From Pseudomonadota bacterium (GTDB taxonomy: Bacteria > Pseudomonadota > Gammaproteobacteria > Acidiferrobacterales > UBA6901), in the NCBI GenBank assembly GCA_021783175.1, contig JAJXUF010000093.1, positions 1 through 12,061 on the forward strand: a stretch of DNA of 12,061 nucleotides, in the 5' to 3' direction. Under the pieces are notes generated by a model. The model worked only from the letters and a program-made list of their open reading frames with translations, made no database searches and was not told the DNA's origin. Positions 1,587-11,149 of the stretch are shown here, piece after piece (the stretch's first letter is position 1; each line of letters starts with the position of its first letter). The position numbers and the translations under genes are program-made.

Positions 1587-4500
1587 TCAAGCCAGCGCTG
1601 CCAGCCATTCGCCGTATTGCACCGGGTGGCGCGTCATGCATTCCAGTAGCTGTTGCTTGCCCCACAATTTAACCCCGAGCAATTTTGCCTGCTCTTGCGC
1701 CGCAAGATTAAAGGATTGATTGGTCAGTGCCATGCGTTTGAAACTTATGCCGGGGTAACGGCGCTGATAGGCTACAGCGCCAGCTGCCACCTCCTTCACG
1801 GCGTCCCAACCCAAGGCTTGCCCCTGACGACTGGTACTCTTGCACTGGATCAAAAGCCCATTGCCATCCTGAATCGCGACGACATCGACGCCACCATCAC
1901 CACTGACAGGCGTGCGATGTACCTGAAACCCCTGTTTGCTCCACAGCAGAGCGCAGAAAGCTTCAAAGGCATGACCGTCCATGTTGATTAGCTCATCTTC
2001 ACCCACGGCTCGATCAGGGAGCACCGTTTCGCCCGTTGCATCGGCGAAGTTGCCAAACTCTTCCAGCCGAATATCGTCCGCGCCATTGAGCCAGGTCTTG
2101 GCAGCGATCTCACGTTTTTTGGTAAGCAACTCGTCTAGCCGTTTTTCGAATGTTACGAAGTCGGCATGGACTGTCGGGTAATAGACGGTAACGGGCTTAT
2201 CTTGACCGATTCGATAAGCGCGGTCCGTTGCCTGATCTTCTTTGGCCGGATTCCAGGGGCGGGTGTAATGGATGACATGATTGGCCGCCTGAATATTGAG
2301 ACCAAAACCGACAGCTTGTGTTGACAGGATAATGACATTAAACCCTGACTGTTTCTGGAAAGCATCGATCAGGTTCTGTCGTGATATACCGCTTTTTGAT
2401 TGAACGTCGGTATCACCATTGACGATCGCAGGCCGTTTGCCAAAACGCTCACCGATATAGTGCTGGAGCACACGCTGTATCTCGCGCAGTTCAGTGAACA
2501 CGATTACTTTCTCACCACTTGTTTTAATCCGCTCCAGTGCCTCTAAAAGCCATGCCAGCTTAGGCGAATCGCTCAAGGCATCAGCCAGCGGAGGGTGCAG
2601 GTTTGCAGCTTGGCCCATGGCAATCGGGTGCGCACACAACACTTTCAGCTGATGCAGCATCCCCAGCATGGCCTGGCCGACCCGTTTGCTGTCAGCCACT
2701 GCGATCTTGGCCTTGTGAGCTGATAATGCTTGAGCATACAACTGGCGTTGCCGTTCTGAAATCGGCAATTCCCGACAAGCCATGTCTTCCGTTTTGGGCG
2801 GCAACTTGACGACTTCATCCTTCGTGCGACGCAGCAATTGCGGCGCAAACAAGGCTTGCAGTTCCTCAAGTGCGTCCTTCTCCTTGTCTGTATTCGCTTC
2901 GATTGGGCGTTTGTATCTGCGCCCGAATTCGTTCAGTGCGCCGAGCAGTCCGGGCTGGATGAAATCGAACAGGCACCACAAGTCGGTTAGCGAGTTTTCC
3001 ACCGGCGTTCCGGTCGCGGCGATCTTGAATCGCGCGTGCATGGCTTTGGCGGCGTGCGTGACCAGAGCGGCCGGGGATTTTATTTTCTGCGCCTCGTCGC
3101 AAATCATCACGCTCCATCTTTCACGCGCCAGCGAGAACTCGAAATCGCGCAGGGTCTCGTAGGTCGTCAGAATCAGATTGGCTCTACCTTGCCACCCGGG
3201 TTGCAGAAATCGTTTGAGTCCATCTTTCAGTAAGGCGTCGTCGATTTCGTCTTTTTTCGCTTTGTGCCTAGATAGCGTGGAGCCGTGCAAAGCCAGCACG
3301 TGAAACGTGTCCGCCTGAAAAAAATGCTCAATCTCACGCTGCCAGTTGTCCAAGAGTGCAACAGGTGCGACAACCAGCGCGGGCGGGGATTCGGGATTGG
3401 CTTCAAAAATGCTGGAAAGAAACGCCAGCAGTTGCAGCGTCTTGCCGAGACCCATGTCGTCAGCAAGCAGGCCGCCGCGTGCATATTCTGGCGAGTGCGC
3501 CCACAAATGCTGCAACCAGGCCAGACCTTCTTGCTGGTGCGGCAACAGCTCAACACCTTGTTTTAGGGATGTTGGCAGCGTCGGCGCCTGGGTTTTATCA
3601 AAGCCTTTCAGGGCAAGCTGACGCGCCTCCGAGTAATCAACCGCATCGATGTTATGGCTGGTCAACAAGGTCGGTGGTCGACCATTGGAGCGATCAGATT
3701 TCTCGACAGGGTTGGCCGGAGGGCCTTCTTTCCAGTCACCGGATTTCACGCCAGACAATGCCGAATCCACGTCAGCTTTAAGCGCCTTTGCTTCCACCAG
3801 GCTAATCGGCGCAGGCAGTCCCGGCCAGATCACTTCGGTTTTGCCAGCTTGTTCCGCAGCCTCCACAGCACTACTGAAAGTGTCTTGTTCACCTTTGGAG
3901 AACGGCAGCAGCAGTGTCTGCGCGCTGCCCTGCGGCTTGAACGCAATGCCAACTTCAACTTTTTCTGGCAGCCATTGGGTCGCGCCACCCATGCGCATGA
4001 TGTAGGGTGAGTACACTGGCTTGGCAGCGCCAATGCCTTCCACGCGTGGAGCGTAACCGCTGAGGTCATATACCTCGGTAGCTGAAATCAGTATGCGTGC
4101 GCGTTGCCATTCGACCAGCCATGACCGTGCCTGATCGAGCTGAACTTGTGCAGCGGGATCAAGCTCCAGCTTCCGGCCATCCCACTCAAAGCAGAGCTTG
4201 CGTTCCGTGATGCCGCGTTCCAGGACATCAATAAACGTTTGCAAAGCCTGCGGGGTGGGCAGATGCAGCCATTCAGTTGTGGCGAACTGCTCAGCTTGAG
4301 GCGCTACTTGAATGTCTACCCGCTCAATCAATCCTGCCTTTTCGGCAGCGCTGGCAGGATGACGTATCAAAGCCATCTGAAATGTGTAGAACTGCACGCC
4401 TGCTTGTGCGCGTGCCTGCTCGAAGGTTTCAGGAGGAATAATCGTCGATGCCATCTCACCCAGCACGGCATAAGGATTACGCAAAAACGCCTCGGCGCGT

Positions 4501-5322
4501 TCGCCCGCCACACGGCGACCCGGCATGGCCTTGATCTCGGCCAGCACCTGCCTGACCTCGGGCGCAATCACGATATGCACGATCCCGCCGCCGCCGGGCT
4601 GGGTGTGGTCGTAGCGGGGCGGCACGCTTGCATGGCGGTCGAACACTTCCAGCCACCACGCCGGCGCATTTTGAAACGTAGGCAAGACTTCCACCACAGG
4701 TACGCCACTGATTTCGCTTTGGCTCAACTCCAATCGCAGCGCTTCCGGCGTGAGGACGATCGTTGTTTCCAGGAACCGATCTAGTACTGCGTCGGCTTCC
4801 TCGGCGAGTGCGCGTATGCGACCCCATGCGGCAAAGTGCGAATCGCGATTTTTCTCCTTGTCTGGTCTCCGGGCGAAGCTGCGAACCGCATCAACCAATA
4901 GCCAGACGGGCTCCGGCAGTAATTGATCTATTTTCCCAAGTTTGAGCTGTGCGCCAGTTCGGATCACTTCCTGATTGACGGTCTGGCCTGTTTCATTTCG
5001 CCAGCCATCCAGATAAATATTGAACCCGCCGTCGTTCAACGCGCCCTGGCTGACCAACGCCGGGCGCAAAGTGGAAAATTCCGGCAAACCCAGCAGGGAC
5101 GTACTGTTGAAATGTTCGGGATGATTGAGCAGATCGTAAAGATCAGCCCAGGCTATCGTTAGCCCATTCGTGTCACGCTTGGCGTAGCCTTCCTCTTCAA
5201 GTTGAGCCAGATACGCAGCAAGCGGCTGGTCGGTCGGCTCCAGTTCGCCGGGCGTATCCAGCCATTGTTGCGGGGTGAGTGTGGCGACGAAAAAACCGAG
5301 TCCCGATTCGTCAGCCTGTCAT
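1587..5322 (-). CDS. zorD: ZorD: SNF2-type helicase with C-terminal Mrr-like nuclease (start region frameshifted)
   Basis: Cytoplasmic effector of type I Zorya, an ATP-driven DNA translocase joined to a nuclease that attacks invading DNA. With the start-proximal frameshift removed it is about 1245 residues. The N-terminal ~600 residues are a family-specific region. SNF2 motifs follow: Walker A DDMGLGKT (K628), DEAQ at 743-746, GTPVENSLTDLW, and motif VI QATDRAYRIGQ at 1031-1041. The last ~150 residues are an Mrr/REase-like fold with GDGGVDVV (D1147) and QCKS (K1162), the D...QxK catalytic set. The frame is open from the TGA at 5319-5321 to the stop at 1587, but its first ATG/GTG/TTG is a TTG at 5087 with no ribosome binding site, 78 codons in. 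An ATG at 5322, with AGG 5 bases upstream, lies one base out of frame; dropping one G of ATGACAGG would join it to the frame. So this copy is either broken at codon 3, mis-sequenced, or started unusually. It lies 23 bp after the PIN toxin gene. Confidence 0.88.
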
Positions 5323-5345
5323 ACAAGCCTATGCGTCAAGATTGT

Positions 5346-5756
5346 TCACACAAAAGGATTGCGTATTGTCAGCCGGGCGTCGATGACAAACCCATTCTGC
5401 ATGTCCTCACTGGCAAGCTCGTTGCAGCCGCATTCCAGCGCAGCAGCAAGGATCAGGCTGTCGTAATACGCATAGCGATAACGCTCGGCCAGATTCAAGG
5501 CCAGCGCGATGGTTTCCGCCGTTACCTGATGCACTGCACACACTGCGCGTATTTCTTGCAGCGCCACCGCAATGTCCGGGTAAGCCACGCCAAATTTGCG
5601 ATGCAACACACTCGCCATTTCAGACAACACCTGCGTGCTGACCCAGGCGCGCGCTCCGTCCATTACCAGCCGCCGGGCGCGAGCAAGTTTTTCCGACTCA
5701 TCTTCCGAGTAGAGATACAGCAGGATATTGGTATCGAGGAAGCGTTCAGCGGGCAT
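5346..5756 (-). CDS. vapC: PIN-domain ribonuclease toxin (VapC type)
   Basis: 136 residues from the ATG at 5756. It shows the PIN-domain pattern of acidic residues that bind metal: D8 in FLDTNILLY, E46 in VLSEMASVLH, D99 in YYDSLILAAA, and E117/D118 in LASEDMQNG. PIN toxins cut RNA (tRNA, rRNA or mRNA depending on the member) and are held inactive by a partner antitoxin. The length is normal for VapC. The frame is open further upstream to 5846, but that extension lies inside the antitoxin gene and is proline-rich nonsense; the ATG at 5756 overlaps the antitoxin end by 11 bp, a typical coupled toxin start. It sits between zorC and zorD in the same direction, so it is probably expressed with the Zorya genes. 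Target RNA unknown. Confidence 0.88.
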   Translation of the reverse strand: MPAERFLDTNILLYLYSEDESEKLARARRLVMDGARAWVSTQVLSEMASVLHRKFGVAYPDIAVALQEIRAVCAVHQVTAETIALALNLAERYRYAYYDSLILAAALECGCNELASEDMQNGFVIDARLTIRNPFV

Positions 5757-5949
5757 TGGCTTCGTCCCGGTCGAACCGGAAATCGCGTGTTTTAAGGCGC
5801 ACCGCACTGAAGGCGGGCACGGTGGTGGCGGGTTCACTCTCCGCATCCAGCAAAATCACCCGCACCCGGCGTCCATTCCAGCCGCGCAACTCTGCAGGCA
5901 AATCCACCACGTCGTCGTGAGGCTTGCCGATAAATTCAACTGCTTGCAT
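5746..5949 (-). CDS. Antitoxin partner of the PIN toxin
   Basis: 67 residues. The N-terminal half reads as a small beta-rich domain (VEFIGKPHDDVVDLPAEL, then RVRVILLD), resembling the short antitoxins found just upstream of PIN toxins; I do not see a classic helix-turn-helix or ribbon-helix-helix. The C-terminal tail (KTRDFRFDRDEANAR) is charged, as expected for the part that wraps around a toxin. Its strong ribosome binding site AAGGAG (5957-5962) shares a base with the zorC stop codon, and its last codons overlap the toxin start by 11 bp. It is thus translationally linked to both neighbours. Role as antitoxin is inferred from position, size and look, not from a recognised named family. Confidence 0.78.
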   Translation of the reverse strand: MQAVEFIGKPHDDVVDLPAELRGWNGRRVRVILLDAESEPATTVPAFSAVRLKTRDFRFDRDEANAR

Positions 5950-5956
5950 GTAATTT

Positions 5957-5962
5957 CTCCTT
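5957..5962 (-). promoter_or_regulatory. Strong ribosome binding site of the antitoxin, touching the zorC stop
   Basis: AAGGAG on the minus strand, 7 bases before the antitoxin ATG (5949). Its first A is the last base of the zorC TGA (5964-5962). It is the strongest Shine-Dalgarno sequence in the operon, which would favour antitoxin over toxin output. Confidence 0.75.
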
Positions 5963-7602
5963 CATTTTTTCCACCAACCCTTGCTCTCCGCGAAACGATA
6001 CCCTTGCGACTTCAGATAATCAGCGATATCGCCCTTCGCCTCAAGATGAAAAAACCATAGTGCGCCACCGCTTCTGCGGCGATCTTCGGTTCGTATCGAA
6101 TCAAGGGCGGCGGGACGACGGCGTTCATTATCGGGTGCAGCAGGGCGCGTAGGTATTTGTGACGTTCGGGTGGATTTTGGAATGACGAAGGTCTCATTCG
6201 TCGTGTTGATGCCCAAATCCTTGAGGCCGTGAAATGTGCTAGAGCCGTCGACAAATTTCTTCTCCCATTTGACCAGGCCATCATGATGACTGCCCCAAAA
6301 TGCGTATCGCTGCTTGTCCTTCAAGTCTCCTGGATAATCCAAATAGCCGCGCCCCAGGGTAAAGGGCACGTCGTTTTCAGAATATCCGTAGCAAGCATCC
6401 CCCATTTCGCCAAACTCGACAAAATAATACGCACCAATTTTCATGATGAAGGCGTTTTTGCTGCCGCCCCCGCCATCCAGACGGCTGATGCGACCTTTTT
6501 TCTTTTGTTTGAATTCGACCCAGTCCCGGTCATGGCTGTGCCACAAGTGGCTACCGAGCGCGATGTGCGAAAAGCTGATCTGTTTGATGTAGCGTGCCCA
6601 GAAGCGCAGTCGCCGTGGATCGGCAGCTCTATCGGCGGCAAGCAATTCGAAGAAGTCCCGCAAATCTTCCAGCACCAGCCATTGGCTGACCATTTCCTTC
6701 ACCGCAGGCGCAACATGCCCCCACTTGCCGTGTCTCGAAATCTGCGGGCTTTGCCATGCTTCCAGCGCCTGCGCTTTCAAGCTTTCGTGAGCCGCGTGGT
6801 CCTGGCAAGCGTGGTAACGGGTGAGCAGGAGTTTCAGGCCGTCGTCCCAGAGAAGCTTGTGTTCCTTTAGCAATTGAGCCAACGGCTGCAAAGCAGCCTT
6901 AAACTGATCGTCAGATAAAGTCGAGGCTTCCTGTATCTGCGCCAGCACCAATTCACGCCAGAACCAGCTAGTCGGCGGAATATCAAGCTCTTTCCGAATC
7001 TGATGCAGTCTTTCGTGATTGCCATGCAGGGCCTCTGCTGCATAGGCCGCAGTCGGGTTATCGGATAACAAGCCACGCTCACCGCTCAACGTATTGAGCC
7101 AAGCCAGGCAAGCCAGCAGGTTCGGGTTCGTGCGTCGCAACAAGTTGTCCAAATCATTCTTTAGCCAAGCTCGCAGGCGCTGCCAATTAGCTTTTCCTGC
7201 CGAAGTGATTTCTGGGTCGTAGCGAAAGTACGCATCGAGTAGCCCCAGCCACATCAGGCTTGCGGGTTTACGGTGCTCGATTCCCCCTATGAAATCGGCA
7301 AACGATTTGTCATCTTCGATCAGCGGGGAATGTCCCGCACACCGTTGCGTCAGCCCCCAGCAGGCAAAGTAGAACGACATGCCATCCAGTTCACGTGCGC
7401 CCTGCGCGCGCAAGATTTTTAGCGCGGAGCAGATTCTGTCTGGGGTGGGCGAGACAAGCCGGTCGCCGAGTTGTTTACGAAGGGAGATGACGGTTTTCTG
7501 GATGGCCTTAATGCCGTCGTCAGGCAAGCTGAAATTTGTCGGGGCCAGTCGCTGTACCGACGCATTCAGGCCTTGTTGCAAAGCGTCAATTGGCGACGGC
7601 AT
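5962..7602 (-). CDS. zorC: ZorC: EH-signature domain protein of type I Zorya
   Basis: 546 residues from the ATG at 7602. ZorC is a cytoplasmic Zorya component, known in the E. coli system to bind DNA and act with ZorD; it has no known enzyme fold. The EH-signature region is near residues 340-460: conserved-looking E396 in YYFVEFGEMGDACYGYS and a histidine pair H439/H440 in AFWGSHHDGLVKW supply the E and H that name the family. The frame also opens at a TTG at 7626, but the ATG at 7602 is a better start and overlaps the zorB end by 17 bp. Oddity: residues ~477-515 (nt 6174-6055) are Arg/Pro-rich and unlike the rest. The +1 frame over just this stretch encodes a smoother sequence (NPPERHKYLRALLHP, then PKIAAEAVAHYGF) with more G/C in third positions. 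One extra A in the A4 run (6175-6178) and one missing T in the T6 run (6049-6054) would explain it. Confidence 0.88.
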   Translation of the reverse strand: MPSPIDALQQGLNASVQRLAPTNFSLPDDGIKAIQKTVISLRKQLGDRLVSPTPDRICSALKILRAQGARELDGMSFYFACWGLTQRCAGHSPLIEDDKSFADFIGGIEHRKPASLMWLGLLDAYFRYDPEITSAGKANWQRLRAWLKNDLDNLLRRTNPNLLACLAWLNTLSGERGLLSDNPTAAYAAEALHGNHERLHQIRKELDIPPTSWFWRELVLAQIQEASTLSDDQFKAALQPLAQLLKEHKLLWDDGLKLLLTRYHACQDHAAHESLKAQALEAWQSPQISRHGKWGHVAPAVKEMVSQWLVLEDLRDFFELLAADRAADPRRLRFWARYIKQISFSHIALGSHLWHSHDRDWVEFKQKKKGRISRLDGGGGSKNAFIMKIGAYYFVEFGEMGDACYGYSENDVPFTLGRGYLDYPGDLKDKQRYAFWGSHHDGLVKWEKKFVDGSSTFHGLKDLGINTTNETFVIPKSTRTSQIPTRPAAPDNERRRPAALDSIRTEDRRRSGGALWFFHLEAKGDIADYLKSQGYRFAESKGWWKK

Positions 7603-8314
7603 GGCGCTGCAGTTGGCACTGCCCAAGTGGTGTCAGGTTGGTGGCAGATGCCGATGACGCGGGTAATTTTTCCTTTTCGTCCACGCCCCAAAATTCCAAC
7701 TTGAGCTCCACCCGGCGGCTTTCCTCGTCGGTAGCACGTGCGGAATTCGAGGAGTAACCGCCCACCAGAAATAGTTCTCGGATGCGCTGTTTTTGATCGT
7801 CAGTTAGCGACTGTTCACCCGCCCCAGGTTGGTCATATAGCGCGCATAAAACACTGTGCGCACGCTTCAGACTCAAATCCAGATTGAGTAAATAGCTTCC
7901 GGAGCGATCGGTGTAACCTTCCACCACCACCCGCCGCAACAGTTTTTTCCCACAGGTCGAGTCGGCAAATTCCAGCATGACAGGTGCGAATTCGCGCAGC
8001 TGCCGCGCGCTTGCTGCCGACAGGTTGTAATCAGAAAGGGCAAAACGTGCGCGCGCGCCAAAGCTGACGCGACGATTCTTGATATCCAGCTGAACGCCTG
8101 GCTGTCCAGCGACCAAGTTTTTAACGTTCCCCAGACACGCTTCGATTTCTGCCTCGTGGCGATCATTGCGGCTGGTAATGGCAAACAAGGCCACCGCCAT
8201 GACCACCAGAAACAGCATCATCAATGCCGTCATCAAATCGGCGTAAGAAATCCAGAAAGGCTTCTCGCCTTCGTCTCGTCCTCGTCGGGGAATAACCAGT
8301 CGGGTGCCCAGCAT
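7586..8314 (-). CDS. zorB: ZorB: MotB/OmpA-like peptidoglycan-binding motor subunit
   Basis: 242 residues. ZorB pairs with ZorA in a proton-driven inner-membrane motor and anchors it to the cell wall. A short cytoplasmic N-terminus leads into one membrane helix (about residues 25-47) beginning with WISYADLMTALMML; D26 is the proton-carrying aspartate expected of MotB-type subunits and stands at the position known for E. coli ZorB. The periplasmic part is an OmpA-like peptidoglycan-binding domain: GYTDRSGSYLLNLDLSLKRA (133-152) and ESRRVELKLEF (198-208). Length fits the family. The ATG is 2 bases after the zorA stop (TGACCATG), so the two subunits are coupled in translation. Neighbouring zorC and zorD exclude a flagellar MotB. 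Confidence 0.92.
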   Translation of the reverse strand: MLGTRLVIPRRGRDEGEKPFWISYADLMTALMMLFLVVMAVALFAITSRNDRHEAEIEACLGNVKNLVAGQPGVQLDIKNRRVSFGARARFALSDYNLSAASARQLREFAPVMLEFADSTCGKKLLRRVVVEGYTDRSGSYLLNLDLSLKRAHSVLCALYDQPGAGEQSLTDDQKQRIRELFLVGGYSSNSARATDEESRRVELKLEFWGVDEKEKLPASSASATNLTPLGQCQLQRHAVAN

Positions 8315-8316
8315 GG

Positions 8317-10167
8317 TCAGGGTTTGTGGAGTGTGCCGACGACAGCGGCTAGTTCGGTGAAGGCACCTTTGAGCAGATTCGTCCCTGTCGTCAGCTCGCT
8401 CTGGAATGCAGCGTTGCTCTTACCAAGTTCACGTGTTACGGCATCGCCGAATTTGCTAAATGCCGTGTCGAGCAGATTGTTCAACTGGTCGAAATATTCC
8501 TGGGTTTGTTGTTCAACCGCGTGCAACTGCTGAGCTACTTTGCTCATGTCATCAACAATTTGTTTGCTGACACCCGCTTCACGTCTGGCTTGCTCAACCA
8601 CACTCTTCAGGGCATCGATCATGCCCTGGATCGTTTGCTGGGCATTCTGATTGGCGATCATGACTGCCGACAGACCGCTACTGGCGATGCTCACCCGATC
8701 CGCTGCGGTGCTCAATGTGTCAAGCGTGGCCGCGCCCTGTTGCATCGCTCCAGATACCACCTTTCCAGCATCTTTAAACTCGGATGCCGCTAGATACATG
8801 TCTTGTGCGCCCGTATTCATTTTGTCGATGGACAGTCCCATCGCTGCGACGGCTTTGAGCGTTTCTGCACTGAGCTTTTCCGTTTCCTGTGCCAAGCCAG
8901 AGACAAATTGCTCTGTCCTGCTGGTCATCTCGCCCAGATGCTTTTGCTCTTCCTCTGCAGCCGCTTTGCGTTGCTCTTCCAGGGCTGTAACAGCATTCTT
9001 GATTTGCTCTTCCAGTTTCATATGGCGGCGATCGGCGGCGCCGAGCGCAACGCTCAATTTGTCTGTCAAATCGCCAGTCGCCTTTTGGCTGGTTTGGCCT
9101 AAATCCGCAATCAGTTTTTCAAAGCCTTTCTGCATTTCGCTCATCGCGACGGTGGACTGCGCCATCATTTCATTGAGTCCGTGCATCTGTCCGCCAAACG
9201 TTTGCTTCATCTGGTCCATGAAGGCGGCCAATAGGTCGTTCAGTATGTTCTGGACTGCGGTGCCTTGTTGACCCGAAGCGTGCGTAACAGCATCTGCAAT
9301 CTGGTTGAGTGGCGTCTGCAAGCTGGTTTGAATGGCCTGACTAATATCTTGCGCGAGTTGCTGGCCATGCGATTGCTGCGCGGCAATCTGCCGCTCGCTT
9401 AAATCCGTCAATATCTGCTTGAGGTCATCGACCAGGCTTTGCTTGAGTTGGGCGGTGTGTGTGTTGTTTTCTTCAGCGGCCTTGACCAGCCGCGCCAGAT
9501 ATTCCTCGCCAGCCCCCGCTTCGTACAGCGTGTCGATAGCCTGGGCGAGCGCCTCAACCTGTTTGTAGCGCCTTGTAAGGATGCTCTTTTCAATAAAGGT
9601 GATGAGCATCGCGGCGCTGATGGCACCGGCTGAGGCGTAGAACGCCTCTTTCACGCCGTTCATCAGTGCATCCAGACTGGCTTTAACTGCTTCGGCGCTG
9701 CCGTTGGGTTCAAAACCAGACAGGCCAACGATCAAGCCCGAAAATGTGCCGATGATGCCGATGCCTGTAAGCAATCCTGGAAGATGGCGAAAAAACTCAG
9801 TGTTGAGCGGCGTATCGACCAGCACCTGAGCATTGAAGAAAACTTCGGCGGGTACCGTGGCGCGAATGGCGACCAGCCGCCGCTCACCTTCTACGTAGTC
9901 GTACTGCTCATGCAGCGTTTCTGTGTACTCAGCCCACAGGTGTTGCAAGGTCTTGTCGGCCTGCATGATCTCGGCCACTTTGTGGCGGTTGACCAATACC
10001 CCGGGGGATTGCAGTGCCTGTATGCGTGGAATGACTTGGTTAAGAACTTTTTTGATACGCGACGAAGGTCGCCAGTACCAATTCACAAAGGTCAGTCCAA
10101 GCGCCACGACAAATACAGCGACAACTGTTGGAATCAGTGGAATCAGAAACTGCGGCATGTTGGACAT
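8317..10167 (-). CDS. zorA: ZorA: MotA/TolQ/ExbB-like motor subunit with long helical tail
   Basis: 616 residues; first gene of the Zorya operon. Membrane segments lie at about 8-30 (FLIPLIPTVVAVFVVALGL), 130-151 (GLLTGIGIIGTFSGLIVGLSG) and 176-195 (AFYASAGAISAAMLITFIEK); the last two, with T141/S143 and S179/S184, match the MotA/TolQ/ExbB proton-channel domain. From about residue 200 to the end the protein is hydrophilic, Ala/Gln/Glu/Lys-rich, with heptad-like patterning: the long intracellular tail known from Zorya, proposed to carry the signal from the envelope to ZorC and ZorD. The whole is somewhat shorter than E. coli ZorA (about 730 residues as I recall), so the tail is shorter. The ATG at 10167 has GGGGAG 11 bases upstream; an ATG three codons later is the alternative. 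Confidence 0.92.
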   Translation of the reverse strand: MSNMPQFLIPLIPTVVAVFVVALGLTFVNWYWRPSSRIKKVLNQVIPRIQALQSPGVLVNRHKVAEIMQADKTLQHLWAEYTETLHEQYDYVEGERRLVAIRATVPAEVFFNAQVLVDTPLNTEFFRHLPGLLTGIGIIGTFSGLIVGLSGFEPNGSAEAVKASLDALMNGVKEAFYASAGAISAAMLITFIEKSILTRRYKQVEALAQAIDTLYEAGAGEEYLARLVKAAEENNTHTAQLKQSLVDDLKQILTDLSERQIAAQQSHGQQLAQDISQAIQTSLQTPLNQIADAVTHASGQQGTAVQNILNDLLAAFMDQMKQTFGGQMHGLNEMMAQSTVAMSEMQKGFEKLIADLGQTSQKATGDLTDKLSVALGAADRRHMKLEEQIKNAVTALEEQRKAAAEEEQKHLGEMTSRTEQFVSGLAQETEKLSAETLKAVAAMGLSIDKMNTGAQDMYLAASEFKDAGKVVSGAMQQGAATLDTLSTAADRVSIASSGLSAVMIANQNAQQTIQGMIDALKSVVEQARREAGVSKQIVDDMSKVAQQLHAVEQQTQEYFDQLNNLLDTAFSKFGDAVTRELGKSNAAFQSELTTGTNLLKGAFTELAAVVGTLHKP

Positions 10168-10672: not shown

Positions 10673-11149
10673 ATGGCCACCGAATCGAGTAATCCAATGA
10701 ACACCCCTTCCGGTCGTACCGTGCTGTTTCTCGATTTCGACGGCGTGCTTCATCCATCCGGCGGCGAGGCTTCAGGAGCGCGATTTTCCAGACGTCCACT
10801 GCTCGAAGCCCTGCTTCGCGAGCCCGATCTTTGCCATGTCGAAATCGTGATCTCCTCAACGTGGCGCGAAGCCTATCCACTGAAGCAGCTCATCGCTGTT
10901 TTCTCGGAAGACATTCGGCCGCGAATCATCGGCGTCACCCCGACACTGGTCGACGTTGCCTTGCACCACCTTCGCTACCGCGAAATCAAAAACTGGCTCG
11001 CCGACCACACGGAAATCGTCCATTGGGCTGCGCTGGACGATGCGATCGACGACTTCCCGAGCGACAGACGTGCCAACGTCGTCTTCACAAACCCGGCAAT
11101 CGGGCTGGAGCACGACCAACTGATCGCGCTGCGCAGGCTGCTCATCTAA
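10673..11149 (+). CDS. Small HAD-fold protein (like the HAD domain of Swiss Army Knife RNA repair proteins)
   Basis: 158 residues. HAD-superfamily motifs are clear: motif I LFLDFDGVLHP with nucleophile D21 and acid D23, motif II VISSTWRE (S61-T63), a basic segment RYREIKNW (R103, K106) in the place of motif III, and the acidic motif IV ALDDAIDD (D122/D123). The order, short cap-less length and the IIGVTP and TNPAIGL elements resemble the stand-alone HAD domain linked to RNA repair proteins (HAD_SAK type), which would act as a phosphatase or phosphotransferase. The substrate is unknown. An alternative start is the ATG at 10697, which would remove eight poorly conserved-looking residues; neither start has a strong ribosome binding site. 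It is divergent from the IS scar and the Zorya operon and precedes an unknown gene by 17 bp. Confidence 0.75.
   Translation: MATESSNPMNTPSGRTVLFLDFDGVLHPSGGEASGARFSRRPLLEALLREPDLCHVEIVISSTWREAYPLKQLIAVFSEDIRPRIIGVTPTLVDVALHHLRYREIKNWLADHTEIVHWAALDDAIDDFPSDRRANVVFTNPAIGLEHDQLIALRRLLI

Follow-up and report, generated by a model that had tools for sequence, protein, structure and literature searches.

A putative VapBC-type antitoxin-PIN pair inserted between zorC and zorD of a type I Zorya operon

Introduction

Addiction modules or backup ribonucleases (RNases) within defence loci are known for restriction, for CRISPR (clustered regularly interspaced short palindromic repeats) and for BREX (bacteriophage exclusion). 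In restriction, the gene for the anticodon nuclease PrrC lies in a type I restriction operon, and the nuclease is silent until the main system is inhibited. For CRISPR, the excerpts available of two papers describe CreTA, a toxin-antitoxin system that makes the defence addictive and whose RNA toxin is repressed via the CRISPR effector (PMC10097628, PMC9458426). PIN, HEPN and Schlafen RNases inside BREX operons have been proposed as backup effectors, according to the available part of PMC12839542. Here, we analyse a stretch of 12,061 nucleotides (hereafter the window; contig JAJXUF010000093.1 of GenBank assembly GCA_021783175.1, from a gammaproteobacterium of the order Acidiferrobacterales) in which the zorC-zorD junction of a type I Zorya operon has taken up a small antitoxin-like gene and a gene for a PIN-domain protein. 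Other PIN pairs are embedded, at another junction, in a second Zorya lineage far from that of the window.

We found no account of a PIN or toxin-antitoxin pair embedded in a Zorya operon in the literature, which was covered for open-licence papers only, so that this absence is no proof. VapC and the phrase "PIN domain" are absent from the main text of a paper on Zorya modularity as far as it was available (PMC11890865), and the passages on Zorya or VapC seen in PMC10924106 and PMC12375680 are unrelated to genes inside the Zorya operon. The main text of PMC12839542 mentions neither Zorya nor VapC, nor the phrase "PIN domain".

Results

Insertion between zorC and zorD

An earlier note on this DNA, made from its letters alone, had placed a complete antitoxin/VapC-type pair between zorC and zorD in the same direction, and both frames are found there on the reverse strand (Table 1). 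The close spacing that it described also holds: the antitoxin ATG lies 12 bp past the zorC stop codon (5964-5962), the two genes of the pair overlap by 11 bp, and the ribosome-binding site of the antitoxin starts at the final base of the zorC TGA. Around the pair, zorA, zorB, zorC and zorD are all present and in order, and the best PADLOC model for each is of type 1, by which the operon is a type I Zorya. The NCBIfam equivalog models for ZorC, ZorB1, ZorA1 and ZorD match the window proteins as well, with scores below the curated cut-offs. The frames of zorA, zorB and zorC are open.

The two closest known relatives of this Zorya module lie in a Burkholderiaceae metagenome-assembled genome (MAG; locus L005) and a Gallionellaceae MAG (locus L006), and their ZorD proteins are 88% identical to that of the window. 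In both, the zorC-zorD junction is empty: the zorC stop is followed by AAGG and the TTG of zorD, with 13 nt from zorC to the first start codon. Because this junction is empty in both relatives, the pair is an insertion, probably made after the split of the window's Zorya module from these two loci, and we rejected the possibility that this Zorya lineage carries it as a fixed part. For its translation, the antitoxin gene now draws on the AAGG found before zorD in the relatives. The repeats found between positions 5300 and 6000 do not link one edge of the insert to the other. DNA similarity between the window and the relatives ends at both ends of the Zorya module, which therefore sits in different surroundings.

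Compared with the relatives, the window has a ratio of nonsynonymous to synonymous substitution rates (dN/dS) of 0.11-0.13 in zorA, 0.18-0.19 in zorC and 0.14 in zorD. The value in zorB is 0.10 against L005 and 0.25 against L006, the ZorB of L006 being much more divergent: it is 63-64% identical to those of the window and L005 (zorB lies at approximately 7368-8084 in L006), whereas the identities of ZorA and ZorD within this trio lie at 88-94%. The zorB of L006 looks to have been exchanged on its own.

The putative antitoxin and the PIN protein

Residues D8, E46, D99 and D118 of the PIN protein are invariant in all 54 aligned members, and its nearest solved structures are PcrIIC1, a helper of Cas9, and VapC toxins. 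PcrIIC1 is the nearest by both sequence and fold, and VapC folds are among the best structural matches. The protein is probably an RNA-cutting enzyme. A simple scan of positions 4900-6500 found no promoter- or terminator-like sites of the pair's own.

Homologs of both proteins are found elsewhere. A search with the PIN protein returned 2165 proteins at an expectation value (E) <= 0.001, the closest clusters being 76-96% identical to it, and a search with the antitoxin returned 40 database homologs including the window's own, with no Pfam domain among them. In the family of L006, 57 of 158 genomes have a PIN match (E <= 0.001), and the antitoxin adjoins the PIN gene at the six best PIN places; in the order of L006, 66 of the 399 genomes drawn have one at E <= 1e-10. 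No Zor genes lie in the flanks (up to 1.5 kb) of the PIN loci L085-L123. Because the antitoxin-PIN pair recurs elsewhere without Zor genes in its flanks, we regard it as an autonomous module. The more distant PIN places (L255-L264) have no match to the window antitoxin. PIN matches also occur in 143 plasmid records, none of them at >= 60% identity, and viral contigs have no match to six peptide patterns from the PIN protein. As a separate observation, in three (L185, L186 and L189) of the loci L184-L189 the free-standing antitoxin-PIN pair has upstream of it a frame of 554 residues, possibly of one and the same gene.

Survey of Zorya junctions

Junctions were collected from several sources. 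These were a ZorD scan of the genome collection, in which the best 80 of 311 loci were annotated; 4 of 24 plasmid records; all 30 EH_Signature places from 25 of 311 genomes of Methylococcales (our name for the order of L049, a Methylococcaceae MAG); for the order of L006, 19 of 20 places, spread over 20 of 399 genomes, the 20th being in L006's own genome; and, across the phylum, 26 of 44 places from 37 of 398 genomes, after three that duplicated others and fifteen weak ones were left out. With 17 duplicate records dropped, 113 zorC-zorD, 114 zorB-zorC and 119 zorA-zorB junctions were readable.

The zorC-zorD survey that the earlier note had proposed finds a PIN pair at one of these 113 junctions, that of the window alone. 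The stretch separating the zorC stop and the part of zorD that aligns has a median length of 22 nt over the 113 loci, and one of 695 nt in the window. Other inserts at this junction are a 222-residue frame in L015 (8522-9190, no Pfam match) and a Sel1/TPR protein in L069. None of the 119 zorA-zorB junctions has an insert. The zorB-zorC junction holds the PIN modules of Methylococcales described below, a lone Sel1-type frame in L063 and a DUF433 frame in L160. The last is a lone gene (E 1.8e-21, reverse strand) of what we take to be an antitoxin family, and no toxin was seen beside it.

Further gaps longer than 200 nt, between zorB and zorC in L181, L182, L300 and L305 and between zorC and zorD in L300, L302 and L307, were rejected as inserts; they reflect alignments that start late, the frame of the following gene being open from the preceding stop or close to it. 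In nine more loci without a ZorC match the zorB-zorD span alone was measured, and the longest (3054 nt, L294) contains an unusually long EH_Signature frame. In addition, L057 has 256 nt with one 49-residue frame between zorB and zorC, and ZorC of L067 is split by an insertion bearing, by eye, a long transposase-like frame.

PIN pairs in a second Zorya lineage

In Methylococcales, PIN pairs lie between zorB and zorC. An AbrB/MazE-like antitoxin gene with a PIN gene is present in L016, L050 (= L056), L058, L159 and L170, a VapB/VapC-like pair in L049 and L053, and a Phd/PIN pair in L046; matches to MazE_antitoxin score below the Pfam cut-off. A VapB-like gene without toxin is also kept in L058 and L159, and a frame-broken one in L016. 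Remnants alone are found in three loci: in L179 an AbrB-like gene that lacks its toxin, together with a frame-broken VapC; in L166 an AbrB/PIN pair that is broken; and in L156 a fragment of the Phd-type PIN gene. One intact pair each is thus carried by eight distinct loci, and we rejected the possibility that an embedded PIN pair is unique to the window.

ZorD is present in ten of these eleven PIN-module loci. On a ZorD tree (FastTree, 111 rows), the ten group with L056 in a clade of 11 rows, nine of them with an intact pair, far from the window. The pair label requires at least four changes on this tree, gains and losses being indistinguishable. Embedded PIN pairs thus arose at least twice, at zorC-zorD in the lineage of the window and at zorB-zorC in Methylococcales, which suggests repeated acquisition of such pairs by Zorya. 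The five AbrB/PIN loci have a PIN identity (0.77-0.90) broadly like that of ZorB (0.84-0.94) and ZorD (0.69-0.89), and dN of the pairs is far below dS; the pattern fits long co-inheritance of these pairs with Zorya. The background density of PIN genes in 12 genomes of the order is 132 matches in 46.2 Mb, or approximately one per 350 kb with the slots included. Because three PIN families in one slot are not expected from random landing at such a density, a hotspot or selection is needed.

The earlier note had drawn attention to Zorya plus PIN as an architecture not known to be described. The presence of a co-directional PIN pair inside a Zorya operon is upheld, and the architecture is no lone accident, because other PIN pairs sit inside other Zorya operons; the exact pair of the window is absent from the two closest relatives and the other 112 zorC-zorD junctions. 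Separately, in nine loci with a zorB-zorC slot (L016, L046, L050, L056, L058, L063, L156, L159 and L166) the slot encodes proteins with a common N-terminal region (roughly MxGYICIAMLEDPPYN in several). These have Sel1 repeats where scanned, and the one in L050 also has an Lcl_C domain.

The start of zorD and the neighbouring genes

The position given for zorD in the earlier note, 23 bp past the pair, is wrong: the ATG at 5322 opens a three-codon frame (Met-Thr-Gly) ending in TGA. In both L005 and L006, zorD starts at a TTG. The corresponding TTG of the window (5339) is 6 nt past the PIN stop, and the frame read from it meets a TGA at codon 7. By eye, no ribosome-binding site is visible before this TTG. 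Past the TGA, the frame is open from 5318 to 1590 (1243 codons) to a stop at 1589-1587, and its first ATG, GTG or TTG is the TTG at 5087, whose place in the alignment to the NCBIfam ZorD model is position 91. Copies of zorD without the interruption exist in relatives. Either zorD is interrupted near its start, or it has a downstream start, or the contig is in error at this site. The fit of the pair is thus less smooth than the earlier note had it: the site found before zorD in the relatives was displaced by the insertion, and zorD has a TGA at codon 7.

Two genes flank the operon on the forward strand. A HAD_SAK_2 gene (HAD domain of RNA repair proteins, E 1.5e-31) at 10673-11149 is divergent from zorA, and a gene for a UPF0149 / SEC-C protein at 203-1171 is convergent with zorD. 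Rfam and tRNA scans of the window gave no matches.

Table 1. Features of the Zorya operon and of the inserted pair, in positions of the window
Feature	Position	Strand	Basis
zorA	8317..10167	-	PADLOC ZorA1, E 1.6e-198
zorB	7586..8314	-	PADLOC ZorB1, E 5.2e-88
zorC	5962..7626	-	PADLOC ZorC1, E 9.5e-117; PF15611
AAGGAG, ribosome-binding site of the antitoxin	5957..5962	-	Its AAGG precedes zorD in relatives
Inserted segment, ~612 bp, edges uncertain by a few bases	5347..5958	-	Alignment with empty junctions of L005 and L006
Antitoxin-like gene, 67 residues	5746..5949	-	Open reading frame; adjoins PIN gene at other sites
PIN-domain (VapC-type) gene, 136 residues	5346..5756	-	PF01850, E 1.3e-13; conserved acids; fold match
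zorD start codon TTG	5337..5339	-	Inferred from relatives L005 and L006
In-frame TGA, zorD codon 7	5319..5321	-	Frame from TTG 5339
zorD frame past the TGA (SNF2 helicase, Mrr-type nuclease domain)	1587..5318	-	PADLOC ZorD1, E 0; PF00176, PF00271, PF04471

Discussion

We lean towards reading the pair as an autonomous VapBC-type module that was captured at the zorC-zorD junction and is read from the Zorya messenger, addictive and perhaps also a backup. The observations that carry this reading are the insertion itself, the gene order, the conserved acids, the predicted fold and the independent embedding of PIN pairs in a second Zorya lineage. The empty junctions of L005 and L006, the close spacing in one direction, the lack of promoter- or terminator-like sites in the simple scan and the occurrence of the pair in other genomes also favour it. 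We hypothesize that such a module landed between zorC and zorD and became part of the Zorya messenger, so that its two genes would be transcribed together with the operon, the antitoxin being translated from the ribosome-binding site that precedes zorD in the relatives. The 67-residue protein would hold the PIN protein, most likely a metal-dependent RNase, inactive. If the operon were lost, or its expression were off for long, a presumably unstable antitoxin would run out, and the PIN protein, acting as a toxin, would cut RNA and growth would stop. The outcome would be an addictive operon, and maybe a last-ditch stop to phage infection.

Several observations weigh against this reading. The 67-residue protein has no match in Pfam, PADLOC, NCBIfam or the Protein Data Bank (PDB) at the thresholds used, and the top structural match of the PIN protein, PcrIIC1, is a Cas9 enhancer and stands outside the toxin-antitoxin group. 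The promoter scan was a crude consensus search. In addition, the copy of the operon in the window may not be working, because zorD seems interrupted at codon 7. The empty relatives, the absence from other zorC-zorD junctions, the decay of the pair in three loci and the apparent damage to zorD in the window all argue against a needed role, and the second lineage, with one intact pair per locus, argues against mere accident. A further reading, which we offer tentatively and think rather unlikely, is that type I Zorya has a fail-safe slot: PIN pairs would be captured repeatedly, and one intact pair at a time would be retained to serve as a second effector, halting the cell once Zorya has been overcome or lost. 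The antitoxin type could change as long as one PIN nuclease stays checked.

On one hand, the pair could be a dedicated backup effector, its PIN RNase being released when Zorya is inhibited or bypassed and then aborting infection, in the manner of PrrC in a type I restriction system. Embedded PIN pairs in two Zorya lineages agree with this, as do the eight Methylococcales loci that keep one intact pair each despite changes of antitoxin type, the low dN of the AbrB/PIN pairs and the available account of RNases within BREX operons (PMC12839542). However, no trigger is known, purifying selection on a toxin-antitoxin pair can stem from its own addiction, and the pairs of L156, L166 and L179 have decayed while the Zorya genes persist; together with the lack of the pair in the two closest relatives and at the other 112 zorC-zorD junctions, this makes a dedicated role unlikely. 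On the other hand, the pair could be a selfish passenger in a failing operon, having cost zorD its ribosome-binding site, with zorD now decaying and no role in defence. The missing site before the TTG, the TGA at codon 7 and the repeated loss of pairs and toxins in the second lineage would be expected of such a passenger. We nevertheless consider it improbable, given that what remains of zorD is one open frame whose dN/dS against the relatives is low, that zorA, zorB and zorC are open, that one stop codon could stem from an error of assembly or precede the real start of the gene, and that the second lineage keeps intact pairs beside Zorya genes. That the PIN protein is no toxin and instead binds a Zorya nuclease and raises its activity, as PcrIIC1 does for Cas9, is very improbable.

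Should the pair matter for defence, assays made with just zorABCD would overlook a layer of it in these hosts; should it not, the slot offers a clear example of a defence operon that has captured a toxin-antitoxin pair. The two lineages, with four different antitoxin genes (one without family match), provide a natural test set, and the empty or decayed junctions can serve as controls.

Compared with known systems, the window shares with type I Zorya (zorABCD) its four genes, their order and the PADLOC type 1 models, and differs in the extra pair between zorC and zorD and in the apparent interruption of zorD at codon 7. The pair resembles VapBC type II toxin-antitoxin modules in its two short overlapping genes with the antitoxin first, its four conserved acids and its VapC fold, but at the thresholds used no model of Pfam, PADLOC or NCBIfam recognizes its antitoxin, and it sits inside a defence operon. 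PcrIIC1 is likewise a PIN protein from a defence locus and is the nearest structure by sequence and fold. It belongs to Cas9 loci, whereas here the PIN gene is preceded by a small gene with the layout of an antitoxin and lies in a Zorya locus; the window is not a type II-C Cas9 locus, and none of the ten window proteins scanned matches a Cas9 model (NCBIfam). PrrC is held by the restriction enzyme itself, whereas the PIN protein is paired with a separate small antitoxin gene. CreTA, as the available excerpts describe it, would share the addictive role, but the window has a small protein gene before the toxin gene and no control by Zorya is known. The proposed backup RNases of BREX, as far as their description was available (PMC12839542), belong to BREX rather than to Zorya, and are alike in placing PIN RNases within or beside core defence genes.
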